Shown: one piece after another, positions 38,849 to 52,527 of the stretch | How the letters are laid out: every line of letters begins with the position of its first letter | How positions within the stretch are numbered: the first letter of the stretch is position 1 | NCBI RefSeq assembly: GCF_014205075.1 | Contig: NZ_JACHMU010000001.1 | Coordinates: 1,364,001 to 1,428,000 of the forward strand | Length of the DNA stretch: 64,000 bases | Source of the DNA: Microbacterium ginsengiterrae | GTDB taxonomy: Bacteria > Actinomycetota > Actinomycetes > Actinomycetales > Microbacteriaceae | Reading direction: 5' to 3' | Translations under genes and position numbers: made by a program | Notes under the pieces: generated by a model | The model's database searches: none | Seen by the model: only the letters and a program-made list of their open reading frames with translations | Told to the model about the DNA's origin: nothing

Positions 38849-38850
38849 CC

Positions 38851-39837: not shown

Positions 39838-39877
39838 CAGGGGGTGGCCCTGCGCCGCCGCTACTGCTACCGTCGCC

Positions 39878-39959
39878 GCATAACTCCGGAGAAACCGCTG
39901 CTTCCGCCGGGCACGCCGCCCGAACGTCGCGGATCCGCGGAAATTCTCCGGAGTTGTGC
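39878..39959. repeat. palindromic repeat family B, copy 1
   Basis: GCATAACTCCGGAGAA (39878-39893) pairs with TTCTCCGGAGTTGTGC (39944-39959) with one T-G wobble; an inner hairpin CGGGC/GCCCG lies at the tip. The conserved core TTCCGCCGGGCACGCCGCCC recurs at 51998-52089. Confidence 0.85.
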
Positions 39960-40069
39960 GGCGTTCATGTGTGAGGCGCACAGTCAGTGGGCTGATTGTC
40001 GAAAGGCAGTTGTCGGGCAGGATTTGTCTAATGTCAGCTAGACTTCACAGCCTAGAAGGAAGGGCGTCA

Positions 40070-40768
40070 ATGACGAACACCTTGGGAGATCGGCGCGTTC
40101 AGCGTCATGCTCCGATCCGAGAACAGGTCGCCGCCATCCTGCGGGACGCGATCGTCCAGATGGAGCTTCGTCCCGGGCAGGTCCTCATCGAGCGGGAACT
40201 GTGCGAGATGACCTCGGCAAGTCGGCCGTCGGTGCGCGAGGCGCTGCGGCAGCTCGAGTCGGAAGGGCTCGTCGAGTCGAGGACCGGCCGGGGAACCGTC
40301 GTCGCCGCACCGTCTCGAGATCAGGCCGAGCAGTTGTACCAAGTGCGCGCCGAACTCGAGGGTATGGCTGTCGAGTTGTTCACCACTCGGGCAGATGATG
40401 CGCAGCGCGCGCAATTGCGGGAAGCCTTCGACGCTCTCGAACGCGCCGTGAAATCGCGGCCGTACGGCGATGTGGAGGCGGGTGTGGCGGCAGAGATGCT
40501 CGCCGCGAAGGACCGGATCTACGGCATCTTCATCGAGGGGGCCGGCAACGAGATCCTCAGTGAGATGGTGGGCGGATTGCAACGCCGCGTCACGCAGCTG
40601 CGCGCGCTGACGATGACCAATCCCGGCAGACTCCAGGCGAGCCTCGAGGAGATCCGCACGATCGTGGAAGCGGTCGAGCGGAAGGATGCCGGCGCGGCTC
40701 GCCGCGCGGCGACGACCCACGTGGAGATGGCCGCACGAACGGCGCTGTCGTTCGTGCGCGGTACCTGA
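40070..40768 (+). CDS. GntR-family regulator, FadR subfamily (FCD domain)
   Basis: 232 residues from ATG 40070, with GGAAGG upstream. Winged HTH: IREQVAAILRDAIVQMELRPGQVLIERELCEMTSASRPSVREALRQLESEGLVESRTGRGTVVA (about residues 15-78 in consecutive blocks), then an all-helical FCD ligand domain ending HVEMAARTALSFVRGT. FCD regulators bind carboxylic acids, often with a metal. As the first gene of the cluster it likely controls the MBL/CMD operon and the oxidase/esterase promoters, where TTGTCAG-type sites occur. TAGACT (40039-40044) may be its own -10. Confidence 0.88.
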   Translation: MTNTLGDRRVQRHAPIREQVAAILRDAIVQMELRPGQVLIERELCEMTSASRPSVREALRQLESEGLVESRTGRGTVVAAPSRDQAEQLYQVRAELEGMAVELFTTRADDAQRAQLREAFDALERAVKSRPYGDVEAGVAAEMLAAKDRIYGIFIEGAGNEILSEMVGGLQRRVTQLRALTMTNPGRLQASLEEIRTIVEAVERKDAGAARRAATTHVEMAARTALSFVRGT

Positions 40769-40834
40769 TTCCGGACGCACACGAGACAAGGCGGGCGACG
40801 GGAGTCGTCCGCCTTCGTCGTCTCCACGACCAAC

Positions 40835-40877
40835 TTGCCTGCTGCGCAAATGTCCGATATACATTTGTCAGACAGAT
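40835..40877 (+). promoter_or_regulatory. promoter and putative GntR operator for the MBL-CMD operon
   Basis: TTGCCT (40835-40840) and TATACA (40858-40863) are 17 bases apart. TTGTCAGACAGA (40866-40877), containing the palindrome TGTCAGACA, follows directly, where a repressor would block the start site. Confidence 0.6.
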
Positions 40878-40886
40878 TGGAAGCTC

Positions 40887-41696
40887 GTGCTCGCCCACTC
40901 CACCTACGACATCGCCGCCGTAAAGTACGGGGCTCTCGCGACCATGCGCTCCGACGTGTTCCTCAACTACGCCGACTACCGGGAATCGGATGAGCCGACG
41001 GGGCTGTCGTACTACTTCTGGGTCGTGCGCAACGGCGATCGCGTCGTCCTCGTCGACACCGGCTTCGACCCCGCGGTAGGGGCTCGGCGCGGCCGTACCA
41101 CCCTCATCGACCCGTTCGATGCGTGGACGGCACTCGGCGTGCCCGATGAGGAGGACACCACGGTCGTCCTGACCCACGCACACTACGACCACATCGGCAA
41201 TGTGCGCCGCCTGAAGCGGGCGCGCTTCGTCATGGCCGCCGCCGAGTACGACTTCTGGATCTCCCGTCCGCGGCAACAGCGGATCACCCGTCAGGTGATC
41301 GAAGAGGACGAACTCGCCGTCCTCGCCGAGCTGCGCGCCTCCGGCCGCCTCACGTTGATCGAGGACTCGCAGGAGCTCGTGCCGGGAATCGACCTGCTCC
41401 TTGCGCCGGGACACACCCCCGGCCAGCTCATGCTTCACGTGCAGACCGCGGAGGGAGGCGTCCTGCTCGCCGCCGACGCGATCCACGTCGATGAAGAACT
41501 GGACCGGCGCATGCCCTTCCGGCACATGTGCGACATCGTCGCGGCCGCCGACAGCTACGAGATCGTCGACCACCTGAGAACTTCCGGCGCCGTCACGCAT
41601 GTGATCGCCGGTCATGAACCGTCTCTCATGGAGCGGTTCCCCACCCATCCCGCCTTGCCCGAGCACACCATCGTGCTGGGCAGCAGCGCGGCGTGA
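40887..41696 (+). CDS. metallo-beta-lactamase-fold hydrolase, N-acyl homoserine lactonase-like
   Basis: 269 residues from GTG 40887 with GGAAG 5 bases before. The dinuclear metal site is complete: THAHYDHIG (HxHxDH, about residues 95-103), GHTPGQ (about 178), the aspartate in LLAADAIH and the histidine in VIAGHEPS. Proteins with this layout include AHL lactonases and other lactone or ester hydrolases. As first gene of a catabolic operon, ring opening of a lactone intermediate is a reasonable guess. The CMD gene follows with a 26-base gap, or overlaps it if an earlier GTG is used. Confidence 0.85.
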   Translation: MLAHSTYDIAAVKYGALATMRSDVFLNYADYRESDEPTGLSYYFWVVRNGDRVVLVDTGFDPAVGARRGRTTLIDPFDAWTALGVPDEEDTTVVLTHAHYDHIGNVRRLKRARFVMAAAEYDFWISRPRQQRITRQVIEEDELAVLAELRASGRLTLIEDSQELVPGIDLLLAPGHTPGQLMLHVQTAEGGVLLAADAIHVDEELDRRMPFRHMCDIVAAADSYEIVDHLRTSGAVTHVIAGHEPSLMERFPTHPALPEHTIVLGSSAA

Positions 41697-41722
41697 CACC
41701 CATCGGAATCGGAGAACTGAAC

Positions 41723-42127
41723 GTGACCTTCACGAAAGAGCCCTCGCACGAGGCCACCTACGACGCAGGCCTCGCGGTGCGCCGCGCGGTCCTCGGCAGC
41801 GAGTACGTCGACGCATCACTGTCGAACGCGACGGACTTCAACTCGGCGCTGCAGGACCTCGTCACGGAATACTGCTGGGGTGCGGTCTGGACCCGGGACG
41901 GCCTGGAGCGGCGGGACCGGAGCCTGCTCAACCTCGCCATGATGACGGCCCTGAACCGCCCGCACGAGCTCGCCCTGCACGTGCGCGGCGCCCTGAACAA
42001 CGGTCTCTCGCGCGAGGAGATCCGCGAGGTCTTCCTCCAGACCGCGATCTACGCCGGCATCCCCGCGGCCATCGAGTCGTTCAAGGTCGCTCAGGCCGTG
42101 TTCACCGAGGAGGATGCGCGTGACTGA
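41723..42127 (+). CDS. carboxymuconolactone decarboxylase (CMD) family protein, single domain
   Basis: 134 residues from GTG 41723, with GGAGA 7 bases before; a GTG at 41693 would add 10 residues and overlap the previous stop. The CMD/AhpD-like fold is recognisable: RSLLNLAMMTALNRPHELALHVRGALNNGLSREEIREVFLQTAIYAGIPAAIESFKVAQ (about residues 60-120 in consecutive blocks). There is no CxxC pair, so it is of the PcaC decarboxylase type rather than an AhpD peroxidase. It overlaps the downstream dehydrogenase gene. Confidence 0.85.
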   Translation: MTFTKEPSHEATYDAGLAVRRAVLGSEYVDASLSNATDFNSALQDLVTEYCWGAVWTRDGLERRDRSLLNLAMMTALNRPHELALHVRGALNNGLSREEIREVFLQTAIYAGIPAAIESFKVAQAVFTEEDARD

Positions 42128-43016
42128 GGCTCCGGCGCTCAGCCTGGTCGGCCTCGGAAACATGGGAGCGGCGATGGCCGCGCGTTGGGTGGACGGCGGC
42201 GTTGCCGTGCATGGATTCGACGTGTCGGAGGGGGCGCGTGCCGCCCTCGAGCAGACCGGTGGAACGGCGTACCCGACTGCCGCGGACGCCGCGCGTGCCT
42301 CCACCGTGTGCGTCCTCATGCTCCCTGACAGCAGGATCGTCGACGCCGTCCTCGCCGACCTGCTCGCACAGGATGCGCTGGCCCCCGGCGCTCTCGTCAT
42401 CGACATGAGTTCGTCGGAGCCGATGAGCTCCCGGGTCAATGCCGACCGACTGGCCGACGTCGGAGTCGACTTCATCGACGCCCCCGTGTCGGGCGGCGTG
42501 CGCGGAGTCGTCGCCGGGACGCTCGCGATCATGGCCGGAGGCGACGACAGGCTCGTCGGACGCGCCAAGCCGATCCTTGAGCACCTGGGATCCGTGACGC
42601 ACGTGGGTCCGGTGGGGGCGGGGCACGCGGCGAAGGCCTTGAACAACCTCGTGTCGGCCAGTCACCTGTGGATGACGTCGGAAGCGGTGCTCGTCGCCGA
42701 GCGATTCGGCATCGAACCGTCCACCATGGTCGAAGTTCTGAACGCCTCGACCGGTCGCAGCGTGTCCAGCGAGGTGAAGTGGCCCAAGTTCATCCTCAAC
42801 GAAGCCTACGACTCCGGTTTCTTCGCCCGGCTGCTGAGCAAGGATGCGAGCGTGGCCACCGGGCTCGCCGCCGAACTGGGCCTTCCTCCTCTCATGGGTG
42901 TGCAGGTGGCAGAACTCTGGCGCGAGGCTGTCGCGGAGATGGAGCCGAGCGCGGACCACACGGCCATCGCGCAGTGGATCCGCGGACGCCTTGATGCCGA
43001 GGGGGAGCGCCGGTGA
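42120..43016 (+). CDS. beta-hydroxyacid dehydrogenase (3-hydroxyisobutyrate dehydrogenase-like)
   Basis: 298 residues from GTG 42120, with AGGAGG at 6 bases; ATG 42114 is an alternative. NAD(P) motif SLVGLGNMGAAMAARW, substrate signature IDAPVSGGVRGVVAGTLAIMAGG (about residues 115-137) and the catalytic lysine in GHAAKALNNLV. The family oxidises beta-hydroxy acids or reduces semialdehydes. Overlapping starts tie it tightly to the CMD genes on both sides, indicating consecutive steps in one pathway. Confidence 0.88.
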   Translation: MTEAPALSLVGLGNMGAAMAARWVDGGVAVHGFDVSEGARAALEQTGGTAYPTAADAARASTVCVLMLPDSRIVDAVLADLLAQDALAPGALVIDMSSSEPMSSRVNADRLADVGVDFIDAPVSGGVRGVVAGTLAIMAGGDDRLVGRAKPILEHLGSVTHVGPVGAGHAAKALNNLVSASHLWMTSEAVLVAERFGIEPSTMVEVLNASTGRSVSSEVKWPKFILNEAYDSGFFARLLSKDASVATGLAAELGLPPLMGVQVAELWREAVAEMEPSADHTAIAQWIRGRLDAEGERR

Positions 43017-43744
43017 CCGACTTCGATCTGCGCGCGGCCGCTACTGCGCGGTTCGCCTGGAACGCCGCGTGGGACCAGACGCTGACCCGACGCCCGGAGT
43101 ACGTCTCCGCAGCACTCGGGCTGGACAGCGCCGCAGAGCGAAGCGGGCATCTCGACCCGAAGACCCGCGCCTTCGTCCGGATCGCATTGAACGCGACGAT
43201 GACCCATCTCGCCCCGCACGCCACGCGGTGCGCGATCCGGGATGCCGTCGCCGCCGGCGCGACCCATGAGGAGATCGTCGAGGTGCTCTTCGTCGCGTGC
43301 ACGATCTCCGTGCACGCGATGAACGCGGATGTCCTCGCAGAGGTGCTCGAAGAGCGGGGTGAGCGCACCGGTCCTGCGCCGCTCTCCGAGGCCCAGGAGC
43401 GGATCAGGGCCGATTTCGCCGCGACGCGTGGATACTGGCGCGACTTCCTCGATCTCACCCTCGAACTCGCGCCCGACTTCCTCGACGCCTATCTCGCCTT
43501 CTCCGGTGCCCCTTGGGAGCACGGCGTCCTCGAACCGAAGGTGCGGGAGTTCCTCTACCTGGCGTTCGACACCTCGGCCACGCACCTGCACATGACCGGT
43601 CTGCGTATCCACATGCACAACGCGCTGGACCACGGTGCGACGCCGGAGGAGATCGTCGAGGTGATGACCATCGCAGCGGGTATGGGGCTCCAGTCGCTCG
43701 ACCTCGCGATGCCCATTCTCTCTGAAGAGTTTGTATCTGACTGA
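43013..43744 (+). CDS. carboxymuconolactone decarboxylase family protein, two-domain
   Basis: 243 residues starting with GTG 43013 that overlaps the previous stop (GTGA). It is a tandem of two CMD units: KTRAFVRIALNATMTHLAPHATRCAIRDAVAAGATHEEIVEVLFVA in the first half and KVREFLYLAFDTSATHLHMTGLRIHMHNALDHGATPEEIVEVMTIA in the second (each quoted in consecutive blocks). Both halves keep the histidine-rich helix but lack CxxC. Such proteins may catalyse decarboxylation or lactone chemistry, but many have no known activity. Last gene of the MBL-led operon before a new promoter region. Confidence 0.85.
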   Translation: MTDFDLRAAATARFAWNAAWDQTLTRRPEYVSAALGLDSAAERSGHLDPKTRAFVRIALNATMTHLAPHATRCAIRDAVAAGATHEEIVEVLFVACTISVHAMNADVLAEVLEERGERTGPAPLSEAQERIRADFAATRGYWRDFLDLTLELAPDFLDAYLAFSGAPWEHGVLEPKVREFLYLAFDTSATHLHMTGLRIHMHNALDHGATPEEIVEVMTIAAGMGLQSLDLAMPILSEEFVSD

Positions 43745-43790
43745 CAATGTGTTAGCTGATATTGACTCGTCTGCAATGTCTAGATAAGTT
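43736..43790. promoter_or_regulatory. promoter of ABC operon with putative operator
   Basis: TTGACT (43762-43767) and TAAGTT (43785-43790) are 17 bases apart. On the minus strand, 43747-43736 reads TTGTCAGTCAGA, 11 of 12 bases like the site at 40866. TCTAGA (43780-43785) adds another small palindrome. Confidence 0.5.
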
Positions 43791-43898
43791 TTCCATAATC
43801 TTGTGCGCCCAACCGGCGCTCAGGTCGACGAGGGACACCCGCATCGCCTCTGTCGAGAAAGACCCACACAGCTGCATGAACCCAAAGGAGGGTTTTGA

Positions 43899-44894
43899 AT
43901 GAACTCCCGCTTCCGCCGCATCCTCGCCGTCAGCGCCGCCGCGGCTCTCGCCACGTCGCTCGTGGCGTGCTCCGGCTCCAGTGACGCCGGCGGCGACGCC
44001 TCGGAGCCCAGCGAGGGCCCCACGGCGATCACCGTCGCCACCTACCCGGTGATGTCCAACGCCGCCGTCTACATCGGGGTCGAGGAGGGCATCTTCGCCG
44101 ACAACGGGCTGGACGTCACTCTCGAGACGATCACCTCGGGTCCGGACTCCGTCCCGACCCTGCTCAGCGGTGACCTCACCTTCACCTCGATCGACGTCCC
44201 CACCCTCATCAACGCCACCAAGGAAGACGTCGGCCTCGTGGCCGTCGGCGCGATGATGGTCGGCGTCGACGTCGACCGCGGATACGTCGGCGTCGTCGCC
44301 GCCCCGGACAAGGGCATCGAGGACTGGGCCGACCTCGAGGGCAAGAAGGTCGGTGTGAATGCGCTCGGCAGCACTCCGGTCGCCCTCATCAGCGCATCCA
44401 TGGAAGCCGTCGGCGCCGACCCCAGCACGGTGCAGTGGGTGCAGATCGCACAGCCGGAGACCATCCCTGCACTGCAGGCCGGGCAGCTCGACGCGGCCAA
44501 CCTCGCTCAGCCTCTGCTGACGGCTGCCGAGGAGGCGGGCTTCGAACAGGTCGGCAACCCCGAGCAGCTCACGGTCGGTGGTGTCCCCACGTTCCTGTAC
44601 GTGACGACGCGAGAGTACGCCGAGAAGAACCCCGAGGTGGTCGCCGCGTTCCAGGAGTCGCTGAACGCGTCCGGTGAGATCGCCAACGGAGATCACGAGC
44701 TCGCCATCGAAACCGCGAAGAAGTCCACCACGGTGGACCCGGCCGTCCTCGACAAGGTCACCGGCCTTCCGATGTGGGGCTCCAAGCCGCTGACGACGGA
44801 GGACCTCCAGAAGTTCATCGATGTCCTGGTCAACGCCGGTCAGCTCGACGAGAGCGACGCCTCGATCGCCGACCAGATGATCTGGAACGGCTGA
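43899..44894 (+). CDS. ABC importer substrate-binding lipoprotein, SsuA/NMT1 type
   Basis: 331 residues with a perfect AAGGAGG before the ATG. Lipoprotein signal MNSRFRRILAVSAAAALATS ends at the lipobox VACSGS (cysteine near residue 24). The mature part matches the nitrate/sulfonate/taurine family: ITVATYPVMSNAAVYIGVEEGIFADNGLDVTLET and SGDLTFTSIDVPTLINATKE. This family binds small charged or aromatic molecules rather than sugars. First gene of a four-gene importer plus an SDR. Confidence 0.9.
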   Translation: MNSRFRRILAVSAAAALATSLVACSGSSDAGGDASEPSEGPTAITVATYPVMSNAAVYIGVEEGIFADNGLDVTLETITSGPDSVPTLLSGDLTFTSIDVPTLINATKEDVGLVAVGAMMVGVDVDRGYVGVVAAPDKGIEDWADLEGKKVGVNALGSTPVALISASMEAVGADPSTVQWVQIAQPETIPALQAGQLDAANLAQPLLTAAEEAGFEQVGNPEQLTVGGVPTFLYVTTREYAEKNPEVVAAFQESLNASGEIANGDHELAIETAKKSTTVDPAVLDKVTGLPMWGSKPLTTEDLQKFIDVLVNAGQLDESDASIADQMIWNG

Positions 44895-44940
44895 CCGACA
44901 GTGATGAGGAGTCAAGATCAACGAGAGCAGGAGATCGCTG

Positions 44941-45759
44941 ATGAACGCGTCAACTGAGGTCACGCGCGCGCCGCGCGCTGACCGACGCGGGCCGAGCACA
45001 TTCGGCTGGCTCCTCATCCAGACCGGTGCGGTCGTCCTGGCGGGGGGAATCTGGTGGCTCGCCTCCGGATTCTTCCCCGCCGGGGCGATCCCCACCCCGC
45101 CGGAGGTGCTGGGCCGGCTGGGGCAGCTGGTGCTGACCGGAGAGTTCTGGTCCGCGATCGGTATCACCGTCGGTACCTTCGCGCTTGCTCTGACCGTCAG
45201 CATCGTCGTGGCCGTCCCGCTCGGCCTCGTGATCGGCGCCAGCACGTTCTGGACCCAGAGCACCCGGTTGCTCTTCGATTTCCTCCGCACCATCCCGCCG
45301 ATCGCATTGCTGCCGCTGCTGCTGCTGGTACTCGGAGCCGACTTCGAGATGGTCTTCGGCCTCGCGGTCCTCGGGGCCATCTGGCCGATCCTCATCCAGT
45401 CGATCTACGCCGCCCGGCAAGGGGAGGCGCTCCTGGTCGACATGTCCGCTGCGTATCGCATCCCGCGCGGGTGGTTCATCCGGCACATCTTCGTCCCCGG
45501 CGCACTCCCGTTCGTGATGACCGGAGTTCGACTGGGCACGACGATCTGTCTGCTGCTGACGATCTCCGGGCAGCTCCTCGGAGCGGCCCCCGGTCTCGGC
45601 CACGAGATCGCCGCAGCCCAAGCCTGGTACGACACCCCGCGCATGTACGCCTATGTCCTGGTGGCCGCGATACTCGGCCTCATCGTGAACGCGGGCGTAT
45701 GGGCGGCGCAACGCCGCCTGCTGCGCTGGCATCCGTCCGTCCGAGGGGAGTCCCGCTGA
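44941..45759 (+). CDS. ABC importer permease, SsuC type (first of two)
   Basis: 272 residues, AGGAGAT before the ATG, six membrane segments (LLIQTGAVVLAGGIWWLAS first). EAA loop: LVDMSAAYRIPRGWFIRHIFVPGALPFVMTG. Its stop overlaps the start of a second, clearly different permease (TGATG), so the membrane part is probably a heterodimer. Many transporters of this family use one permease as a homodimer. Confidence 0.9.
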   Translation: MNASTEVTRAPRADRRGPSTFGWLLIQTGAVVLAGGIWWLASGFFPAGAIPTPPEVLGRLGQLVLTGEFWSAIGITVGTFALALTVSIVVAVPLGLVIGASTFWTQSTRLLFDFLRTIPPIALLPLLLLVLGADFEMVFGLAVLGAIWPILIQSIYAARQGEALLVDMSAAYRIPRGWFIRHIFVPGALPFVMTGVRLGTTICLLLTISGQLLGAAPGLGHEIAAAQAWYDTPRMYAYVLVAAILGLIVNAGVWAAQRRLLRWHPSVRGESR

Positions 45760-46550
45760 TGAAGGCGTTCCGTAACGGGGTCTCGCTCCTCGCGATCGAG
45801 ATCTGGCTGCCGCTGCTGCTCGTGGTCCTGTGGTGGACCGTGAGCGAGTACGTGAACTCGCTGTACTTCCCGCCGCTGCGGGTGATCATGGAGGCGTTCG
45901 CCGAGAACTGGCTCGTGCCGGACAAGGCGCTGTCGAACCTGGTGCCCAGCCTTCAGCTGATCATCGTGGCGTACTCGCTGGCGGTGGTCGCCGGTATCGT
46001 CTTCGGCACCACGCTGGGCCTGGTGCGCCCCCTTGAGCGCGCGGTCCGCCCGATCGTCGAGGCCATGCGCGCCGTGCCCGGCGTCGCTCTCCTACCCCTG
46101 TTCATCGTGCTGTTCGGCATCGATCAGCCGATGCGGATCCTGCTCGTCGCGTTCGGCGCGATGTGGCCGGTGCTGCTCAACACCCTCGACGGTGTGCGAG
46201 GCGTCGAGCCGACTCTGCTCGACATGACCCGCTCGTACCGCGTCGGGCGCGTGCGCCGCCTTTTCCAGGTCATCCTGAAATCTGCCGGCCCTCAGATCTT
46301 CGCCGGCGCGCGGATCTCGCTCGCGGTGACCCTGATCATCATGGTGGTCGCCGAGACCGTGGGTGCCGACGGCGGCGTCGGCTACTTCCTGATGACGGCC
46401 AAGAGCGAGTTCCGCATCTCCGCGATGTGGAGCGCCATGGTCGCCCTCGGCATCCTCGGCTACATCCTCAACATCATCTTCCGCATCGCAGAGCGCTACG
46501 TCCTGCGCTGGCACCGACTTCAGCAAGCCCGATTGGAGAGGACGTCATGA
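45759..46550 (+). CDS. ABC importer permease, SsuC type (second of two)
   Basis: 263 residues from ATG 45759, overlapping the previous stop; six membrane segments (LLAIEIWLPLLLVVLWWTVS first) and EAA loop LLDMTRSYRVGRVRRLFQVILKSAGPQIFAG. It differs substantially from its neighbour but has the same topology. The stop overlaps the ATPase start (ATGA). Confidence 0.9.
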   Translation: MKAFRNGVSLLAIEIWLPLLLVVLWWTVSEYVNSLYFPPLRVIMEAFAENWLVPDKALSNLVPSLQLIIVAYSLAVVAGIVFGTTLGLVRPLERAVRPIVEAMRAVPGVALLPLFIVLFGIDQPMRILLVAFGAMWPVLLNTLDGVRGVEPTLLDMTRSYRVGRVRRLFQVILKSAGPQIFAGARISLAVTLIIMVVAETVGADGGVGYFLMTAKSEFRISAMWSAMVALGILGYILNIIFRIAERYVLRWHRLQQARLERTS

Positions 46551-47395
46551 CCTCGAACTCCACGCCCGCGCAGGGCGCAGCATCCACCACCGTCGCCGCG
46601 CTCGAGGCGCGAGGGCTCGGCCACTCCTACGGTCCGCGCCAGATCCTCGGAGGCATCGACTTCTCGGTCGAGCAGGGCGAGTTCGTGTGCATCGTCGGAC
46701 CGTCCGGCGTCGGCAAGACCACCCTCCTGCGATGCCTGTCCGGGTTGCAGGTGTCGACCGCGGGTGAGCTGCACGTGCTCGGCTCCGTGGTCAAGGAGCC
46801 CCAGCCCGGTGTCGCCCTCGTGTTCCAGGACTACAGCCGCTCGCTCATGCCGTGGGCGTCGGTGCTGGAGAACGTGACACTGCCGCTGCGCGCCAACCGG
46901 GTATCCAAGAAGGACGCGAACGCCCGTGCCTATGAGGCCCTCGAGCAGGTCGGCCTCGCCGCCGCGGTGGGGGACCAGTACCCCTGGCAGCTCTCCGGCG
47001 GGATGCAGCAGCGCGTGGCGATCGCGCGTGCTCTCGCCTACGACCCGACGGTCCTCCTCATGGACGAGCCGTTCGCGTCGGTGGACGCGCAGACCCGCTC
47101 AGACCTCGAGGACCTCGTGCTGCGTCTGCAGCGACGGCTCGGGCTCACCGTCATCCTCGTCACCCACGACATCGATGAGTCGGTGTACCTCTCCGACCGC
47201 ATCGTGGTGCTCGCGGGGTCGCCCGCTCATGTCGCCGAGATCGTCGACGTGCCCCTGGGTGCGGAACGCGATCAGATCGGGACCAAGAGCGACCCGGCCT
47301 TCGCCACGACCCGTGCCCACGTGCACAACCTTGTGCGCGCCGCTGCCGCGGTCTCGCCGTCGACGGGTACGGCGCGCGTGGTGGACGTGCCGTGA
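46547..47395 (+). CDS. ABC importer ATPase, SsuB/TauB type
   Basis: 282 residues from ATG 46547. Walker A GPSGVGKTTLL (about residue 49), Q-loop LVFQDYSRSLMPW, signature LSGGMQQRVAIARAL, Walker B VLLMDEPFASVD and switch histidine VTHDIDES. The RSLMPW sequence after the Q-loop is typical of nitrate/sulfonate ATPases. It powers the two permeases upstream and overlaps the SDR start (GTGA). Confidence 0.94.
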   Translation: MTSNSTPAQGAASTTVAALEARGLGHSYGPRQILGGIDFSVEQGEFVCIVGPSGVGKTTLLRCLSGLQVSTAGELHVLGSVVKEPQPGVALVFQDYSRSLMPWASVLENVTLPLRANRVSKKDANARAYEALEQVGLAAAVGDQYPWQLSGGMQQRVAIARALAYDPTVLLMDEPFASVDAQTRSDLEDLVLRLQRRLGLTVILVTHDIDESVYLSDRIVVLAGSPAHVAEIVDVPLGAERDQIGTKSDPAFATTRAHVHNLVRAAAAVSPSTGTARVVDVP

Positions 47396-48180
47396 TCGCG
47401 CTGGATCTCCGCGACCGCGTGGCGGTCGTCACCGGAGCGAGCGCGGGAATCGGTCGGGCCACGGTCGGGGTGCTCGTCGAGGCGGGTGCCACCGTGCTCG
47501 CGGTCGCCCGCCGGGAGGAGAACCTCCGCGAACTCGCTGAAACGCTGCCTTCCGGTGCCGTGATTCCGCTGCCGCTCGACATCACCGAACCGGATGCTGC
47601 GGCATGGGTGGTCGACGCCGTCGAGGCGGCCGGAGGCCGTCTCGACATCCTGGTCAACGCCGCGGGCGGGTCTCGCACGGTCGCCGTCGACGCACCGGAC
47701 TCGGCCTGGGACGAGGCGATGGAGCTCAATTTCAGTGGAGGTCGGCGTCTCTCCCAGGCGCTGATACCGTTCCTTCGGTGCAGTGAACACGGCCGCATCA
47801 TCACGGTCACCGGCTCGTCCGAACCTGCCACCAACCCCGTCTTCGCGGACGCGTCGCGCGCCTCGGCACTGAATGCGTCGAACTCGGCGAAGGCTGCGGC
47901 GCACGCATGGAGCAAGGGCCTGTCTCGTGAGCTCGGGGTCGACGGCATCACCGTCAATTGCGTGGCACCTGGCACGATCCTCACCGAACAACTGGCGCGC
48001 ATCTTCCCCACTGAGGAGGACCGCCGCCGGCACGTCGAGGAGATGGGCATCCCCGCCGGCCGATTCGGAGCCCCGATCGAACTCGCGCACACCATCGCCT
48101 TCCTGGCGTCGGATCTCGCCGAGTACATCACCGGCGAGATCATCAGTGTCGACGGCGGGAAGCGACGCTTCGCGTTCTGA
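47392..48180 (+). CDS. SDR-like protein without the catalytic tyrosine
   Basis: 262 residues from GTG 47392. Cofactor motif TGASAGIGRATVG, NAAGG, and C-terminal ISVDGGKRRFAF are normal. The active-site region reads TGSSEPATN and then LNASNSAKAAAHA: the lysine is kept but the position four before it, normally tyrosine, is serine. Similar substitutions occur in some SDR branches with altered chemistry. Translational coupling to the importer suggests it acts on the imported compound or an early intermediate. Confidence 0.82.
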   Translation: MIALDLRDRVAVVTGASAGIGRATVGVLVEAGATVLAVARREENLRELAETLPSGAVIPLPLDITEPDAAAWVVDAVEAAGGRLDILVNAAGGSRTVAVDAPDSAWDEAMELNFSGGRRLSQALIPFLRCSEHGRIITVTGSSEPATNPVFADASRASALNASNSAKAAAHAWSKGLSRELGVDGITVNCVAPGTILTEQLARIFPTEEDRRRHVEEMGIPAGRFGAPIELAHTIAFLASDLAEYITGEIISVDGGKRRFAF

Positions 48181-48210
48181 AGAGGCCCTCTCTCCGGGCG
48201 CGAAGAATTA

Positions 48211-48251
48211 GGAAGGGGAGGAGCGGATTCGTTGTCCGCTCCTCCCCTTCC
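48211..48251. terminator. strong bidirectional terminator
   Basis: GGAAGGGGAGGAGCGGA (48211-48227) and its exact reverse complement (48235-48251) form a 17-base-pair stem with a 7-base loop between two convergent SDR genes. Confidence 0.92.
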
Positions 48252-48260
48252 GTCTGTCGC

Positions 48261-49073
48261 TCAGTCCACGTCGTCCTGGTACTGGTGGAAGGCCTGCTCG
48301 ATCCGACTGAACCTCTTCGCGACGGCGGACCACCGGTCGGGATGGGTGATCGCATACGGGTCGTCGTTCTCGATCGCGCGCACCGTGATGCGCCCTACTT
48401 CCGACGGCTCGAGCCAATGCGTGCTCGACGAGAACGACAGGTCGATCGCGGCATCCTGCAGCGCGCCCTTATCGCCGTCCGGGCGGTGACGAGTGCTCTG
48501 CGCGATGTTCGTGCGCACCGATCCGGGCACCAGCTGCGTGACGTGCACGCGGCTGCCGGCTTCCTCGAGTTCGAGTTGCAGAACCTCGGTGAGCGCCGCG
48601 ACGCCGAACTTCGACACCGCATAGGCGCCCAGCCGGGCGAACGGCGTCAGGGTCGACATCGACGTCGTGTTGACGATGTGGCCGCCGTGCGGGTTGGCTT
48701 CGAGGATCGGCAGGAAGGTGTGCACTCCATGGATCACGCCGTAGAGGTTCACGTCGAGCATCCAGCGCCAGTCGGCCATCGTCAGCTCGGCGATCGGGGC
48801 GAACGGCCCGACGCCGGCGTTGTTGACGACGATCTCGATGCTGCCGAACTCGGCGACCGCGGTGGCTGCGAGCTCTTCCACGCTCTCCAGACGGCTGACG
48901 TCGGTGGCGACCCAGAGCGCACCGATCTCGGCGGCGGTCTGTTCAGCGGCCGCTGCGTCGACGTCTGAGATCATCACGTGCGCACCTTCGGTGATGAGCG
49001 CCTCCGCGATGCCACGACCGATGCCGGATGCACCGCCCGTGACCACCGCGGAGGCGCCATGCACGCGGGTCAC
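48261..49073 (-). CDS. short-chain dehydrogenase (SDR)
   Basis: 270 residues from GTG 49073, with CGGAGG 7 bases upstream. Complete classical SDR: TGGASGIGRGIAEAL, NNAGVGPFAPI, YAVSKFGVAALTE; the C-terminal 60 residues (WLEPSEVGRITVRAIENDDPYAITHPDRW) resemble the longer SDRs acting on hydrophobic alcohols or ketones. It follows the flavin oxidase gene by 25 bases, so it may oxidise or reduce the oxidase product. Confidence 0.88.
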   Translation of the reverse strand: MTRVHGASAVVTGGASGIGRGIAEALITEGAHVMISDVDAAAAEQTAAEIGALWVATDVSRLESVEELAATAVAEFGSIEIVVNNAGVGPFAPIAELTMADWRWMLDVNLYGVIHGVHTFLPILEANPHGGHIVNTTSMSTLTPFARLGAYAVSKFGVAALTEVLQLELEEAGSRVHVTQLVPGSVRTNIAQSTRHRPDGDKGALQDAAIDLSFSSSTHWLEPSEVGRITVRAIENDDPYAITHPDRWSAVAKRFSRIEQAFHQYQDDVD

Positions 49074-49098
49074 GCGACGCCTCCGGAGACTCGGGTCA

Positions 49099-50661
49099 TC
49101 ACGCGCGGTAGCTTCCCGGCCACACGCCGTGACGTCCGGCGGCGAGGATGCCCTTCGGGTCGACGGCATCCTTGATCTTCTCGACGAATCGGCGGTACGC
49201 GTGGTCGTTGAAGGAGAGCTGGTCGGACACGAGGTCCATGAGGTCCACGTGTGCCCGGTACTCGGTGAAGCCGCGCTTGCCCGCCTCGACGACGAGTTTC
49301 TTCATCGTGGTGTACGAGTTGCGGAAGAGCTCCTCATCCGTCACGTCGAACGTGATGCTGTTCACGGCGACGCAGGTGCGGTCGTTCGGGAAGTACAGTG
49401 CGCATACGTGGTTCAGACCGACCGCGTCGACGATGACGTCGCGGATCATGTCGATGCTCTCGACGACGGTGTCGCCCTTCAGCGGGAGCACGGGGGCGAA
49501 GGCGATGTGGCCGACGTTGGCGGGCGTGGCCTGGATGATGTCCATGTTCGGGATTCCGGCCTGGACCTTGTCGACGAACTTCGTGATCTCGCCCCACTCG
49601 TCGCGCGCGAAGATCCGATCGGAGATGACACGACCACCCTCGATCGCCTCCCACGCGGTCCGGATCCGCTCGAGGTGGTGGTCGACGACGACGCGGTCTC
49701 CCCAGAGCGCCGTGCGCGCGCCCCAGCGTCCGAGCCCGGTGCTGTCCCCGAGCTCGTTGAGTTTCTCGTCACTCATCGCAGCATCAGCGCGAAGGTACAT
49801 GTCACGCGTCTCGTCGAACTGTGCGGACATCGTGACGAGGTTCTGGATGCTGGGAACGCCGCGGACAACGCCGTCGAGGCGGAGCTCTCGGAAGATGTCG
49901 ATCGCCTGGGCGAGCTGCTCGTGGCGCGGGATGGTGAGGAACAATGGAGCGAACGCCTCGGGGCGGCGCATGAGCCAGATGCCTGCGCGCGTGACGATGC
50001 CGTAGTTCGACTGGAAGAACAGCTGATCGAGGACCGGACCGTATCCGCGGGTGTACAGGTGCCAGGAGTCGTTGCCCGGCTGGGCGCCGAGCCCGGTGCG
50101 GAGGATCTCACCGTCTGCGAGCACGACCTCGAGGCCGCAGATCTTCTGGAAGTCGGACCCGTAAGGGGCATACGTCATGCCGTTGTCGAGCGAGTTGCCG
50201 ATCACGCTGCCCCAACCGAGGTCCGGGATCGAGAACCAGAGATCCTCGTGACCGGCGCGATCGAGTGCCTCGCGCAGTTCGAACCATGAGACACCGGGCT
50301 CGACGACCGCGTAGGCGAGCTCCTCGTTGATCTCGAGAACGCGGTTCATCTCGCGAAGGCTGATGAGGACTGAGCCGCGGACACGGGGCGAGGGGCCGCC
50401 GTATCCGTTGTTGCGGCCCTGCGATGAGGTCCACAGCGGCACGCCGTGCTCGTTGGCGATGCGGACGATGGCCTGGATCTGCTCCGTCGAGTGCGGGAAC
50501 AACACGAGCGAGGAGTCGTATGTGCGGTCCTCGATGTTCCAGAACGGGTCGCGATAGTTGTCACGCTCTTCCTGCGAACGGAGAGCGTGCTCGTCGCCCA
50601 CGACGGCGACAAGCAGATCGGCGATCTGAGGGTCAAGCTGATAGGGAGCGGCATTCACCAT
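49099..50661 (-). CDS. FAD-linked oxidase of the vanillyl-alcohol oxidase / 4-cresol dehydrogenase family
   Basis: 520 residues, the length of eugenol and vanillyl-alcohol oxidases. PCMH-type FAD domain: VPLWTSSQGRNNGYGGPSPRVRGSVLISL (in blocks), YAVVEPGVSWFELREAL, PDLGWGSVIGNSLDNGMTYAPYG. The cap domain continues to GHIAFAPVLPL and ends ILAAGRHGVWPGSYRA. These enzymes oxidise para-substituted phenols, making quinone methides and then alcohols or aldehydes. AGGACT precedes the ATG. The control region is shared with a divergent serine hydrolase. A phenolic substrate is inference from the family. Confidence 0.85.
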   Translation of the reverse strand: MVNAAPYQLDPQIADLLVAVVGDEHALRSQEERDNYRDPFWNIEDRTYDSSLVLFPHSTEQIQAIVRIANEHGVPLWTSSQGRNNGYGGPSPRVRGSVLISLREMNRVLEINEELAYAVVEPGVSWFELREALDRAGHEDLWFSIPDLGWGSVIGNSLDNGMTYAPYGSDFQKICGLEVVLADGEILRTGLGAQPGNDSWHLYTRGYGPVLDQLFFQSNYGIVTRAGIWLMRRPEAFAPLFLTIPRHEQLAQAIDIFRELRLDGVVRGVPSIQNLVTMSAQFDETRDMYLRADAAMSDEKLNELGDSTGLGRWGARTALWGDRVVVDHHLERIRTAWEAIEGGRVISDRIFARDEWGEITKFVDKVQAGIPNMDIIQATPANVGHIAFAPVLPLKGDTVVESIDMIRDVIVDAVGLNHVCALYFPNDRTCVAVNSITFDVTDEELFRNSYTTMKKLVVEAGKRGFTEYRAHVDLMDLVSDQLSFNDHAYRRFVEKIKDAVDPKGILAAGRHGVWPGSYRA

Positions 50662-50713
50662 TGAGAGTCCTACTCAGTCGGGTCATCAGCGCAGTGGAGC
50701 ATCCACCTGGCTA

Positions 50714-50741
50714 TTTGTCATTTGTCAGACGACACTATAGT
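50714..50741 (+). promoter_or_regulatory. promoter with embedded putative GntR operator
   Basis: TTTGTC (50714-50719) and TATAGT (50736-50741) are 16 bases apart. TTGTCAGACGAC (50722-50733), like the 40866 site, lies between them. It sits in the divergent region between the oxidase and esterase genes and could control both. Confidence 0.55.
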
Positions 50742-50798
50742 AGTTATCTGGCACGCTGCATTGCATGCTCAGGACCCATACCGATGAGTGGAGCAAAG

Positions 50799-51989
50799 AT
50801 GACCACCATTTCCGTCGACACCAGCGCAGAGATCGACGGGCGACACCTCCCCGTGGCCGGCCACCACGAGAAGCGATTCGCCCCCGTCGTCGAGGCGTTC
50901 ATCGACAATTACCGGCAGGAGAACGAGCTCGGATCTGCTGTGAGCCTCGTCGTCGACGGCAAGAAGGTCGTGGACGTCTGGGGCGGGTGGTTCGATGTCG
51001 GACGCGAGCGCGAGTGGGAGCAGGACACTCTCGTCTGCATGATGTCCGTGGCCAAGGGCATCACGGCGATCGCGTTCAACATGCTCATCGACCGGGGCAT
51101 CGTCGACCTCGACGAGCCTGTCGCCACGTACTGGCCGGAGTTCGCCGCCAACGGCAAAGCCGAGCTCCCCGTGCGCTACCTGCTCGACCACCGGGCAGGA
51201 CTGCCCGCCCTCGAGGAGCCGCTGTGGCGCGGCGCGATGTACGACCGTGAGGCCATGGTGGCGGCACTCGCGCGACAGGCGCCGCTGTGGGAACCGGGCA
51301 CCGTCGCTGCGTACCACGTGCACACACAGGGGTATCTGCTCGGCGAGATCATGAGGAGGACCACCGGCAAGCTCGTCGGTGAGTTCGTGCGCAATGAGAT
51401 CGCCGGTCCCCTGGGGGCCGACTACTGGCTCGGGCTGCCGGCATCCGAGCACGCCCGTGTGAGCCCGCTCGTGCCGAGCATGGGGGCGAAGATCCTCGCC
51501 GCTCAGGAGGTCGAGCCGGAGGACTCGCTGCGGCGCCGCGCGTTCGCCCAGAACCCGCCTGGCACCTGGGGTGAGATGGTGAATTCGCCGGAGTGGCGGG
51601 AGATGGAGATGCCCAGCGGCAGCGGGCACGGAAACGCCCGCTCCGTCGCGCGCATCTACGGCGCGCTCGCCGCCGGCGCGGTCGACGGCATCCGCTTGCT
51701 CAGCGAGGACGCGCTCGACACCATGACGACGATGCAGCACGACCAGATCGAGTTGCTCCAGGATCGCCACTACCGCCAGGGGCTCGGGGTGTTGCTGAAT
51801 TCGCCCGATGCCGTGTACATGGGCCCGAACCCCGCGGCATTCGGCCACCACGGAATCGGCGGTTCCATCGGGTTCGCCGACCGCGATGCGCGGATCGGAT
51901 TCTCATACTCGGTCAACCAGATGCACGACGTCGGCACGAACGGGCCGCGCGCACGTCGACTCATTGACGCCGTCTACGCCTGCCTCTGA
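50799..51989 (+). CDS. beta-lactamase-fold serine hydrolase (family VIII esterase-like)
   Basis: 396 residues from ATG 50799, with GTGGAG upstream. The class C-type SxxK motif is SVAK (about residue 83 in CMMSVAKGITA); the second motif has YHVHTQGYLLGEI, where the tyrosine is kept but the usual YxN asparagine is not; the third is HHGIGGSIGF. No signal peptide, so it acts inside the cell as an esterase or amidase rather than in drug resistance. It is divergent from the phenol-type oxidase and probably co-regulated, perhaps freeing its substrate from an ester. Confidence 0.85.
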   Translation: MTTISVDTSAEIDGRHLPVAGHHEKRFAPVVEAFIDNYRQENELGSAVSLVVDGKKVVDVWGGWFDVGREREWEQDTLVCMMSVAKGITAIAFNMLIDRGIVDLDEPVATYWPEFAANGKAELPVRYLLDHRAGLPALEEPLWRGAMYDREAMVAALARQAPLWEPGTVAAYHVHTQGYLLGEIMRRTTGKLVGEFVRNEIAGPLGADYWLGLPASEHARVSPLVPSMGAKILAAQEVEPEDSLRRRAFAQNPPGTWGEMVNSPEWREMEMPSGSGHGNARSVARIYGALAAGAVDGIRLLSEDALDTMTTMQHDQIELLQDRHYRQGLGVLLNSPDAVYMGPNPAAFGHHGIGGSIGFADRDARIGFSYSVNQMHDVGTNGPRARRLIDAVYACL

Positions 51990-51997
51990 CACGGCTG

Positions 51998-52089
51998 CCG
52001 GGGCATAACTCCGGAGAAACCGCCGATTCCGCCGGGCACGCCGCCCGAAACATGCGGATCCGCCGAAAAGCTCCGGAGTTGTGCCCCGG
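51998..52089. repeat. palindromic repeat family B, copy 2
   Basis: CCGGGGCATAACTCCGGAG (51998-52016) pairs with CTCCGGAGTTGTGCCCCGG (52071-52089) with a single wobble. Its inner core matches copy 1 at 39878-39959 almost base for base, in the same orientation. Confidence 0.88.
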
Positions 52090-52121
52090 GCTCGTCCCGT
52101 ACCGCGGCTTCGCCGCTCGAC

Positions 52122-52502
52122 TCAGCGGCGCGTCGACCAGGCCGCGGCCCAGACGAGCACGGGCTGGAAGAACAGCCGCACGAAGCGCTTCATGTCGGTG
52201 TCGAGCCCGAAGCCGTCGCGCTGATGCATCCACTGCGCGACGTTGCCCGGGAAGACGGCGACGAAGAACAGCGCGGCGAGGGTTCCCACGGTGCGGCGGC
52301 GCTTCCGCGCGAACAGCAGGGCGGACCCCAGACCGATCTCCACCGCGCCCGATGCGAGCACGGTCGTGTCGGGGTCGAGCGGCAACGACTCTGGTACCTG
52401 GGCCTGGAACTCGTCACGCGCGAACGTGAGATGCGACACCCCGGCGAACACCAGCGATGCTCCGAGGAAGATACGAGTGACGGTGCGTGCGCGTGAGGCC
52501 AT
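52122..52502 (-). CDS. small DoxX-like membrane protein
   Basis: 126 residues with four hydrophobic segments (RIFLGASLVFAGVSHLTF; VLASGAVEIGLGSALLF; VGTLAALFFVAVFPGNVAQW; FQPVLVWAAAWS). The spacing and the GxxSHLTF and GNVAQW motifs fit DoxX-family proteins, which are linked to redox or thiol stress in some bacteria. TACGCT (minus strand, 52509-52514) is 6 bases before the ATG, suggesting a leaderless start. It converges with the serine hydrolase across repeat B copy 2. Confidence 0.78.
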   Translation of the reverse strand: MASRARTVTRIFLGASLVFAGVSHLTFARDEFQAQVPESLPLDPDTTVLASGAVEIGLGSALLFARKRRRTVGTLAALFFVAVFPGNVAQWMHQRDGFGLDTDMKRFVRLFFQPVLVWAAAWSTRR

Positions 52503-52508
52503 GACAGG

Positions 52509-52514: not shown

Positions 52515-52527
52515 CGCCCCGCGGCGG

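Follow-up and report, generated by a model that had tools for sequence, protein, structure and literature searches.

A conserved gene cluster of Microbacterium ginsengiterrae that probably imports and breaks down a phenolic compound

A block of 13 genes at positions 40070-51989 of the window, the 64,000-nucleotide stretch of Microbacterium ginsengiterrae DNA that was analysed, raises the question of which compound its products act on and whether they act together. In a first-pass annotation the block had been described as a candidate undescribed cluster for uptake, ester cleavage, side-chain oxidation and lactone opening of a single phenolic, lactone or ester compound. All genes named in that annotation were present with their catalytic residues in place, and the observation was confirmed by family matches and by residue conservation in relatives (Table 1). 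Both the helix-turn-helix and the FCD domain of the regulator were found by family scan, and for the two permeases and the ATPase (44941-47395) the identification relies on sequence, position and syntenic relatives, not on family scans. The GTG start codons of MBL and SDR2 were assigned in the present analysis. Genes for an aldehyde dehydrogenase, a demethylase and a semialdehyde dehydrogenase are absent from the 13-gene block. From the analysis described below, the cluster probably imports and breaks down a phenolic compound.

Table 1 Genes and sites of the cluster, with positions in the window
Feature	Position	Strand	Length (aa)	Evidence or remark
GntR regulator, FCD-type	40070..40768	+	232	PF00392 67.8 bits; PF07729 (FCD) 87.5 bits
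Putative operator TTGTCAGACAG	40865..40875	+		22 bases 5' of the MBL start codon
MBL, metallo-beta-lactamase-fold hydrolase, lactonase-like	40887..41696	+	269	PF00753 (Lactamase_B) 74.1 bits
CMD1, PcaC-like carboxymuconolactone decarboxylase (CMD) family	41693..42127	+	144	CMD 81.9 bits
HIBDH, beta-hydroxyacid dehydrogenase of the 3-hydroxyisobutyrate family	42114..43016	+	300	PF03446 129.9 bits; PF14833 120.9 bits
CMD2, tandem CMD-domain protein	43013..43744	+	243	PF02627 in two stretches, 61.8 bits
Putative degenerate operator CTGACTGACAA, 5' of the binding-protein gene	43737..43747	+		two mismatches
Substrate-binding protein, NMT1/SsuA-type	43899..44894	+	331	PF09084 (NMT1) 87.5 bits
ABC permease A	44941..45759	+		71% identity in G229
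ABC permease B	45759..46550	+		77% identity in G229
ABC ATPase	46547..47395	+		76% identity in G229
SDR1, short-chain dehydrogenase	47392..48180	+	262	PF13561 154.9 bits; 67% in G229
Hairpin, terminator-like, between convergent SDR1 and SDR2	48211..48251	.		17 pairs, 12 G-C
SDR2, short-chain dehydrogenase	48261..49073	-	270	PF00106 167.5 bits
VAO/eugenol-oxidase-type FAD-dependent 4-phenol oxidase	49099..50661	-	520	FAD_binding_4 (PF01565) 94.7 bits
Putative operator TTGTCAGACGA, divergent VAO/EST promoter region	50722..50732	+		TGTCNGACNA retained in G229 and G215
EST, class C beta-lactamase-fold, family VIII-like esterase	50799..51989	+	396	PF00144 202.9 bits

The set is conserved as a unit in another genome. 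In G229, which belongs to another genus, all 13 genes were found in the same order and on the same relative strands (locus L040), with 57-80% identity. When three genes lying left of the cluster were searched for, none was matched in the G229 locus at E 1e-8. An oxidase with at least 55% identity was carried by eight other genomes of the same family, from 398 searched, and in all eight CMD1, HIBDH and CMD2 lay in one fetched stretch with such an oxidase; three of the 16 oxidase copies at this identity in the eight genomes sit away from CMD1 and HIBDH (L089, L092 and L093). SDR2 adjoins the oxidase in L040 and L089 as well. The MBL-CMD1-HIBDH core was also recovered by itself: 12 of the 13 core loci fetched had no oxidase match in their stretch, 11 of the 13 CMD1-bearing MBL loci had no EST match above 60 bits in theirs, and G215 has an esterase-oxidase-SDR2-GntR set and the core on separate contigs. 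Because the core recurs without both enzymes, the cluster resembles a more widespread core to which a peripheral oxidase-esterase module is joined, and this core need not act on the oxidase product.

Relatives of CMD2 at E 1e-10 were found in four of 198 congeneric genomes, its own included. A genome contig search with MBL as the sole single-sequence query gave two loci, and an alignment query would reach further. The CMD1 search of plasmids gave 488 records, mostly from Rhizobium, of which H1-H4 were examined, and the oxidase was found in 32 plasmid records, of which H26 and H27 were examined. CMD1, MBL and GntR relatives were present on Rhizobium etli pB, where no HIBDH match was found, and none of CMD1, MBL, GntR and HIBDH was matched on Corynebacterium pCOCCU. 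Nine of 13 binding-protein homologues (contigs of at least 6.5 kb; 27 used) equalled some MBL homologue (29 used) in longest-contig size, which is only suggestive.

A palindromic candidate operator, TTGTCNGACAA, was found in both transcription units. Its longer form, TTTGTCAGACRR, occurs exactly at only two sites in the 3.04 Mb genome, one ahead of each half of the cluster (the second at 50721). Ahead of MBL, 16 bases spanning the site are identical in G229; between the divergent oxidase and esterase genes TGTCNGACNA is retained in G229 and G215; and 5' of the binding-protein gene TGACTGACAA is retained at the same place in G229. The site before the GntR gene is a weak match. Copies of the regulator occupy the same place in G229 (74%) and lie beside EST and VAO in L089 (64%) and beside MBL and CMD1 in L044 (57%). 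Across 27 related loci the 11-mer, with at most one mismatch, was found at 44 places, 43 of them intergenic, compared with 0-4 intergenic places for each of 19 matched control palindromes in the same loci. In the own genome, with one mismatch, the backward control of the 11-mer gave 44 places and the 11-mer itself 21, the 12-mer was found at 5 against 3, and a scan of the window with three mismatches gave no operator excess (9 found, 10.5 expected). Because neither the one-mismatch counts in the own genome nor the looser counts in the window show a clear excess, the case for the operator is carried by place and conservation. Five one-mismatch places outside the cluster were examined: one is just 5' of another GntR gene, one falls within an ORF in the L058 region, and inspection of the other three by eye gave no link to aromatic genes.

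The same palindromic operator has been described for two other GntR-controlled catabolic units, where DNase I footprints cover ATTGTCAGACAAT for AlkR (PMC12042122) and TTGTCTGACAA for LhgR (PMC8206213); there it was footprinted and here it is read from sequence. As described in those papers, the AlkR unit controls alkane use and the LhgR unit L-2-hydroxyglutarate use, unlike the present phenolic-type cluster. We infer that GntR binds the palindromic operator at its promoters, which its sequence, place and conservation fit; the regulator is presumed to be a repressor, and the whole cluster is apparently switched by one regulator. Synteny in G229 and the operator sequence that the two halves have in common bear out the connection between the oxidase/esterase part and the CMD/ABC part that was implied by describing them as one cluster. 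They support a conserved, probably co-regulated unit. The 12 of 13 core loci without an oxidase match and the split contigs of G215 speak against the single linear route first proposed. No promoter-like sites passed a consensus scan. Two terminator-like sites were found in the region compared with 3.0 in shuffles, so for the hairpin between SDR1 and SDR2 the long stem alone is notable.

The best solved relatives of the oxidase were eugenol oxidase variants (362 bits, residues 19-519 aligned). The phenolate triad of Tyr87, Tyr468 and Arg469 is present and is kept in 23, 24 and 25 of 25 aligned sequences, respectively. The flavin site comprises Asp147, the covalent-flavin His385 and a non-proline N5 residue, Leu148; in the oxidase alignment the Asp, His and Arg were found in 144 of 144 sequences, and the N5 residue was L, I or V in every one. 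This pattern of Asp, covalent His and non-Pro at N5 is the oxidase type described in PMC7617285, and the residue roles in 4-phenol oxidases were taken from that paper and PMC12507022. Eugenol oxidase of Rhodococcus jostii RHA1 shares the Tyr-Tyr-Arg triad, the Asp, the covalent-flavin His and a non-Pro residue at N5, but its pocket residues Gly392 and Ser394 are replaced by Ala387 and Ala389 in the present oxidase. The Gly/Ser pair was found in 107 of 116 relatives at 50-66% identity and in one of 21 at 66% or more, the query included. In eugenol oxidase, S394A is reported to move products toward dehydrogenation (PMC9684555), and position 392 to contact the ortho substituent (PMC11148156). For the present oxidase the two alanines predict that 4-alkylphenols would be dehydrogenated more than hydroxylated.

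Aromatic neighbours of cluster relatives were found on pLRE138 of Rhodococcus erythropolis R138, in Amycolatopsis deserti and in Variovorax RA8, and an aromatic-acid-symporter-like gene lies near relatives in L044. In the methoxyaromatic-type region of pLRE138, an oxidase with 57% identity has Rieske/VanB, aminomethyltransferase, FolD, PurU, P450, dioxygenase and maleylacetate reductase genes as neighbours; of the 13 cluster proteins, matches in this 37.6 kb stretch were limited to the oxidase and a distant SDR. Since the oxidase has the residues of tested 4-phenol oxidases and its relatives lie beside O-demethylation, C1-folate and dioxygenase genes, it likely acts on a para-substituted phenol, in support of the phenolic reading in the first-pass annotation.

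The best solved relatives of EST were carboxylesterase 5gmx (279 bits) and fenoxaprop-P-ethyl hydrolase 7y3z (267.5 bits), and SxxK and Tyr (Ser83, Lys86 and Tyr172), the motif of family VIII esterases, were found in three of three aligned sequences. The predicted model of the binding protein (pLDDT 86.3, residues 1-36 below 50) has an NMT1/SsuA/Thi5 fold. Identification of the ligand from structure was tried, but the fold matches were too general, spanning taurine, sulfonate, pyrimidine, thiamin, nitrate, bicarbonate and PQQ binders, and for this reason the importer ligand cannot be named from fold. An importer paralogue in the own genome lies in one stretch (L058) with a catechol 2,3-dioxygenase-like gene, and an importer relative in G365 (L122) adjoins relatives of HpaD and HpaE (75% and 79%).

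Degradation of bisphenol F proceeds, after BpfA, by Baeyer-Villiger oxidation and then ester cleavage. A diaryl or aryl ketone could be degraded here in the same manner, by the oxidase, a Baeyer-Villiger enzyme encoded outside the block and the esterase, which is encoded divergently to the oxidase. BpfA, from Microbacterium sp. F2, is a 4-phenol oxidase with bisphenol F as a substrate and by its description falls in the same subfamily as the present oxidase (PMC12507022, the main text of which does not contain the words 'gene cluster'). A separate aromatic region of this genome encodes a Baeyer-Villiger-like monooxygenase, which scores 243 bits against a pentalenolactone-type model whose cut-off is 1100. 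However, this protein had no relative at E 1e-5 in the window at 38001-54000, L040, L089 or L044, and the reading is considered improbable.

In the core, the MBL metal ligands HxHxDH-H-D-H were found in 31 of 31 aligned sequences. For the predicted model of MBL (pLDDT 95.8), the 26 best PDB chains were all lactonases, from a handful of proteins (5eh9 and 5eht among them). As modelled, MBL folds like lactonases, and the lactonase-like nature first assigned to it stands at the level of fold. The nearest folds include AHL lactonases, and several public records label MBL relatives 'N-acyl homoserine lactonase family protein', both of which would suit a quorum-quenching or detoxifying lactonase in a defensive, not catabolic, cluster. 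Quorum quenching was nevertheless rejected because MBL scored far below the cut-offs of the named NCBIfam lactonase models (AidB 62.7 against 360, AiiA 58.8 against 375, 4-pyridoxolactonase 41.5 against 325); with an importer, dehydrogenases and CMD proteins in the operon, and with recurring aromatic neighbourhoods, a defensive role is very improbable.

CMD1 marginally passes the PcaC model TIGR02425 (157.2 bits, cut-off 155.7), in favour of its being, with MBL as enol-lactone hydrolase, a displaced beta-ketoadipate tail; it is the only match in the genome above this cut-off. The tail was rejected because no match to intradiol dioxygenase (PF00775) was found in the genome, and the protocatechuate dioxygenase that was found is of the 4,5 type, which leaves this origin of the pair with very little probability. 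The earlier observation that neither a ring-cleavage dioxygenase nor a CoA ligase is present holds for the block only: a LigAB-type protocatechuate 4,5-dioxygenase gene and homoprotocatechuate genes lie elsewhere in the genome.

Lys174 of HIBDH was found in 42 of 42 aligned sequences, paralogues included. A lactonase-fold MBL and a hydroxyacid dehydrogenase likewise occur in the Agrobacterium gamma-butyrolactone (blc/att) set, which is made up of a lactonase, a hydroxyacid dehydrogenase and a semialdehyde dehydrogenase; the present block differs in having CMD proteins and no semialdehyde dehydrogenase, and the AttM model gave 44.4 bits against a cut-off of 390. The core could work like that set, and not on ring carbon, if EST yields two halves, of which VAO and SDR2 handle one, a phenol, and MBL, HIBDH and CMD1/CMD2 the other, a non-aromatic hydroxyacid or gamma-lactone. 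This would agree with the lactonase-like fold of MBL, with the core being carried without VAO and EST at most MBL loci fetched, with a succinate-semialdehyde-dehydrogenase-like gene adjoining CMD2 in L043 (528 bits against a cut-off of 646) and with a succinate-semialdehyde dehydrogenase annotated in a Shinella cluster. It is harder to reconcile with the lack of such a dehydrogenase here and with the core sitting among oxygenases and oxidases in Variovorax RA8 and in multi-oxidase Microbacteriaceae-type clusters, and we regard it as possible, though rather unlikely.

The cluster as a whole is best explained, with a probability of about 0.58, by GntR-controlled import, a peripheral oxidase-esterase module and a lactonase/CMD/dehydrogenase core. 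Gene content, synteny, residue conservation and the shared operator sequence are the observed side of this explanation, from which we infer repression and induction, the substrate class, the order of steps and the core reactions. A GntR/FCD repressor would shut two transcription units via TTGTCNGACAA sites at the MBL promoter, at the divergent oxidase/esterase promoter and probably also 5' of the binding-protein gene, and a substrate-derived inducer would release it from these operators. The NMT1-type ABC importer would bring in a small, probably anionic aromatic compound, and EST would cleave an ester to release a phenol that is para-substituted and probably O-methylated. With O2, the oxidase would attack the benzylic carbon via a quinone methide, yielding H2O2 together with an alkene, alcohol, aldehyde or ketone; oxidation of an alcohol would fall to SDR2 (and SDR1). 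In the core, MBL may open a lactone or activated ester, CMD1 may decarboxylate a product, HIBDH may oxidise or reduce a hydroxyacid or semialdehyde, and CMD2 may have a related role. The resulting aromatic acids could feed the protocatechuate 4,5-cleavage route encoded elsewhere in the genome.

No published description of the 13-gene set was found among the matches listed from open-licence papers, in agreement with its earlier designation as undescribed. Tentatively, MBL-CMD1-HIBDH, together with CMD2 and a GntR that reads TTGTCNGACAA, might constitute an as yet undescribed module for central catabolism in Actinobacteria, to which sets in Proteobacteria are related. Several peripheral modules would deliver plant-derived phenolics to a common lactone or hydroxyacid intermediate, and the core would finish it without beta-ketoadipate enzymes. 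If this is true, the peripheral modules on the central core would be the esterase-oxidase module here and multi-oxidase, Rieske/VanB or importer variants elsewhere. To our knowledge, the role of eugenol- and vanillyl-alcohol-type oxidases in their hosts is mostly open. Such oxidases have been engineered as tools for lignin-derived phenols (e.g. PMC9684555), and the present cluster sets oxidase partners, a transporter, a regulator and a likely operator side by side. The operator, found across one bacterial family, predicts regulon members, and it gives a direct way to the inducer and therefore to the substrate. The recurring lactonase/CMD/dehydrogenase core points to catabolic chemistry that is without a name in current family models.

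Thirteen genes fill positions 40070-51989 of the window, which comes from a genome of one 3.04 Mb contig, bearing out the gene block named by the first-pass annotation. The nine-gene plus-strand run has overlaps of 1-14 bases at six of its eight junctions. A hairpin separates the convergent SDR genes, so the two halves of the cluster look like separate transcription units; the hairpin is perhaps a two-way terminator.

Features of the cluster, with the identity of each product to its copy in L040, a stretch of genome G229
Feature	Position	Strand	Arrangement	Identity
GntR (FCD-type regulator)			first gene, ahead of the nine-gene run	74%
Palindrome, one mismatch	40865		22 bases 5' of MBL
MBL (metallo-beta-lactamase-fold hydrolase)		+	run of nine	57%
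CMD1 (PcaC-like protein)		+	run of nine	77%
HIBDH (beta-hydroxyacid dehydrogenase)		+	run of nine	66%
CMD2 (tandem CMD-domain protein)		+	run of nine	63%
Binding protein		+	run of nine	72%
Permease A		+	run of nine	71%
Permease B		+	run of nine	77%
ATPase		+	run of nine	76%
SDR1		+	run of nine	67%
Hairpin, long, GC-rich, 17 pairs	48211-48251		between convergent SDR1 and SDR2
SDR2		-	after the run of nine	71%
VAO-type oxidase		-	after the run of nine	78%
Palindrome, one mismatch	50722		between oxidase and esterase
Esterase			divergent from oxidase, last gene	80%

It had been proposed to look for conservation of the set as a unit, and this was found in another genus: all 13 genes are present in L040 in identical order and relative strands, and three genes from left of the cluster in the window, used as queries, matched nothing in that stretch at E 1e-8. 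A search of 299 family genomes with MBL (E 1e-25) matched 33, own genome included, and loci were opened in 16 of the 32 others (L040-L054, L059). Relatives of CMD1 and HIBDH lay in the stretch at 13 of these 16; the remaining three (L053, L054, L059) carried HIBDH and GntR relatives without CMD1. When 398 family genomes were searched with the oxidase at E 1e-60, 23 matched, again with the own genome. Eight other genomes held at least 16 oxidase copies of at least 55% identity (up to three candidates scored per genome), and in all eight (L040, L084-L088, L090, L091) CMD1, HIBDH and CMD2 shared the fetched stretch with such an oxidase. MBL was also present in seven of the eight, the L091 stretch starting inside CMD1. 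Per copy, 13 of the 16 listed oxidases accompanied CMD1 and HIBDH; the L089, L092 and L093 copies lie elsewhere, that of L092 near distant CMD2 and MBL relatives and that of L093 with SDR2 only. Five stretches with oxidases of 40-46% identity were opened (L094-L098). MBL, CMD1, HIBDH and CMD2 were all absent from L094, L096, L097 and L098, and L095, a 4.5 kb contig, is too short to judge; L096 holds an importer relative (ATPase 60%). The complete form of the cluster is rare: binding-protein relatives at E 1e-40 were found in 4 of 398 family genomes, own included, and are close only in G229; among 198 congeners searched at E 1e-10, four, again counting the own genome, have a CMD2 relative.

Clusters carrying two or three VAO-type oxidases were seen in L084, L086-L088, L090 and L091. 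L086 also encodes a BagG/FevA2-related FAD oxidase, a zinc alcohol dehydrogenase, a mandelonitrile-lyase-like protein and hydantoinase A, and L090 hydantoinase B; by eye, the other multi-oxidase clusters have similar ORFs. The ORF at 15545-16714 of L086 combines a flavin reductase domain (PF01613) with an FCD ligand-binding domain (PF07729) and does not match the GntR HTH at E 1e-10, an odd joining of a redox domain to a regulator's sensor domain within these clusters; ORFs in L087, L090 and L091 begin in a similar way.

The two palindromes share the form TTGTC-N-GACAA. Exact copies of TTTGTCAGACRR occur genome-wide only at these two places; allowing one mismatch added three, and the backward control gave three in all. 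In a set of 27 loci that totals 508 kb and includes the window, the 11-mer TTGTCNGACAA, allowing at most one mismatch, was found at 44 places in 20 loci, 43 of them intergenic by the gene calls made here, and all 15 exact places were intergenic. Nineteen control palindromes of the same half-site composition gave 0-4 intergenic places and 0-24 in total each; the loci are related, a few from one genome, so the sites are not independent and the control covers composition, not kinship. The MBL site lies inside 16 bases identical in G229, and the oxidase/esterase site is conserved in G229 and G215. A third site, before the binding protein, is degenerate, with TGACTGACAA kept in G229, and one before GntR is uncertain. 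Counting against an operator, the 11-mer with one mismatch occurs at 21 places in the own genome versus 44 for its backward control, and a looser scan of the window gave no excess. In the excerpted texts, AlkR, an FCD VanR-type GntR member, was footprinted on ATTGTCAGACAAT (PMC12042122) and the GntR regulator LhgR on TTGTCTGACAA (PMC8206213), the same sequence as the putative operator of the cluster.

The organisms given for database homologues of the oxidase include Microbacterium, Okibacterium, Agromyces, Herbiconiux and Leucobacter, and also Arthrobacter and Streptomyces; this range suggests the family Microbacteriaceae, of which Herbiconiux is a member. With residue roles taken from excerpts of PMC7617285 and PMC12507022, alignments mapped the phenolate triad to Tyr87, Tyr468 and Arg469, the flavin Asp to Asp147, the oxidase-type N5 residue to Leu148 and the covalent His to His385. 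Among 144 sequences (the query, 24 from fetched loci and the best 119 of 2644 database homologues, some rows being one protein twice), the Asp, His and Arg were unchanged and the N5 residue was L, I or V. Phenol oxidation by the cluster is likely. The earlier proposal of uptake, ester cleavage, side-chain oxidation and lactone opening of one compound is partly supported and extended, its lactone step being putative. At pocket positions 392/394 eugenol oxidase has Gly/Ser, whereas the cluster oxidase has Ala/Ala; in the set with the best 119 of 2644 homologues, Gly/Ser was kept by 107 of the 116 that share 50-66% identity with it versus 1 of 21 at 66% or above. In eugenol oxidase, S394A favours isoeugenol, the dehydrogenation product (PMC9684555, excerpt), and position 392 touches the ortho substituent (PMC11148156, excerpt). 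The cluster oxidase may convert 4-alkylphenols to more alkene than alcohol.

The metal ligands of MBL are kept in 31/31 aligned sequences. Its structure model (pLDDT 95.8) best matched 26 PDB chains, all lactonases of a handful of proteins including 4-pyridoxolactonase, with methyl parathion hydrolase next; none of the named lactonase models was reached. HIBDH Lys174 is conserved in 42/42 sequences and CMD1 Glu92, His96, Asn103 and Gly104 in 22/22, CMD1 scoring slightly above the PcaC cut-off. The closest solved relatives of the esterase are carboxylesterases and fenoxaprop-P-ethyl hydrolase, and the binding protein has the general NMT1/SsuA fold.

Among named organisms, Amycolatopsis deserti has MBL (50%) and oxidase (44%) relatives in one stretch, with a P450, a 2Fe-2S protein, FolD, a PurU-like protein, an intradiol dioxygenase, an Fe-ADH and an FAD monooxygenase. 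Plasmid pLRE138 of Rhodococcus erythropolis encodes an oxidase 57% identical to the cluster's with Rieske/VanB, aminomethyltransferase, FolD, PurU, P450, dioxygenase and maleylacetate reductase genes; its stretch had no core match. Such folate and demethylase neighbours suggest, by association, that the oxidase relatives act on methoxylated phenols. Corynebacterium pCOCCU matched the oxidase (42%) and not the core. Core relatives, listed here with their neighbours, were found in Variovorax RA8 (MBL 32%, SDR, CMD1 67%, HIBDH 44%, four Rieske proteins, a VanB-type reductase), Comamonas endophytica (GntR 37%, CMD1 68%, HIBDH 45%), Shinella (GntR 39%, HIBDH 41%, CMD1 59%, MBL 28%, ABC transporter, succinate-semialdehyde dehydrogenase) and Rhizobium etli pB (CMD1 68%, MBL 32%, GntR 41%; HIBDH not matched).

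In the own genome no intradiol dioxygenase was matched. Its 1121-1125 kb region encodes a protocatechuate 4,5-dioxygenase fusion, scoring 878.6 bits against a cut-off of 837, and LigK, scoring 413.6 against 304.5; the neighbours there look like the rest of the protocatechuate 4,5-cleavage pathway and did not reach NCBIfam cut-offs. At 1088.6 kb is a protein resembling catechol 2,3-dioxygenase, whose score of 283 misses the cut-off of 320; the same stretch contains another NMT1-type importer and a paralogue of CMD2 (37%). This second aromatic region (L114, C1:1107001-1127000; L058, C1:1088000-1107000) also holds a Baeyer-Villiger-like monooxygenase. A PEP-synthase-like pair in two parts is encoded there as well, with ORFs resembling P450, ferredoxin and reductase genes at its side. 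The pair and these ORFs look like a 4-cresol/4-alkylphenol phosphorylation route, the pair being compared with CreHI/HpeHI as excerpted from PMC9618137. The neighbouring ORFs would correspond to the rest of the cre set. At 2101-2104 kb are HpaD, with 428.2 bits (cut-off 321.4), and HpaE, with 655.2 (cut-off 638.4); in that stretch (L116, C1:2093001-2110000) they and a fumarylacetoacetate-hydrolase-type gene adjoin a phenol 2-monooxygenase family gene (949.9 bits). In L122 (G365) an importer relative adjoins HpaD (75%) and HpaE (79%) relatives. Permeases and ATPase of L122 and L121 (G239) are 55-65% identical to the cluster importer, with the core absent, and in L121 they stand beside ORFs resembling, by eye, acyl-CoA ligases.

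The core and the oxidase/esterase part also occur apart. In genome G215, contig 16 (L089) has esterase (69%), oxidase (68%), SDR2 (68%) and GntR (64%) beside ABC-transporter-like ORFs and no core, and contig 32 (L088) has the core with other oxidases. L044 (G211) carries GntR (57%), MBL, CMD1, HIBDH and esterase (65%) without the oxidase, adjoining a gene that resembles aromatic acid/H+ symporters, though its 316.6 bits fall short of the 418.6 cut-off, and 12 of the 13 CMD1-bearing loci from the MBL search had no oxidase match. The core is therefore more widespread than the oxidase/esterase part. The cluster as a unit, with a shared putative operator sequence and a two-module build, is well supported.
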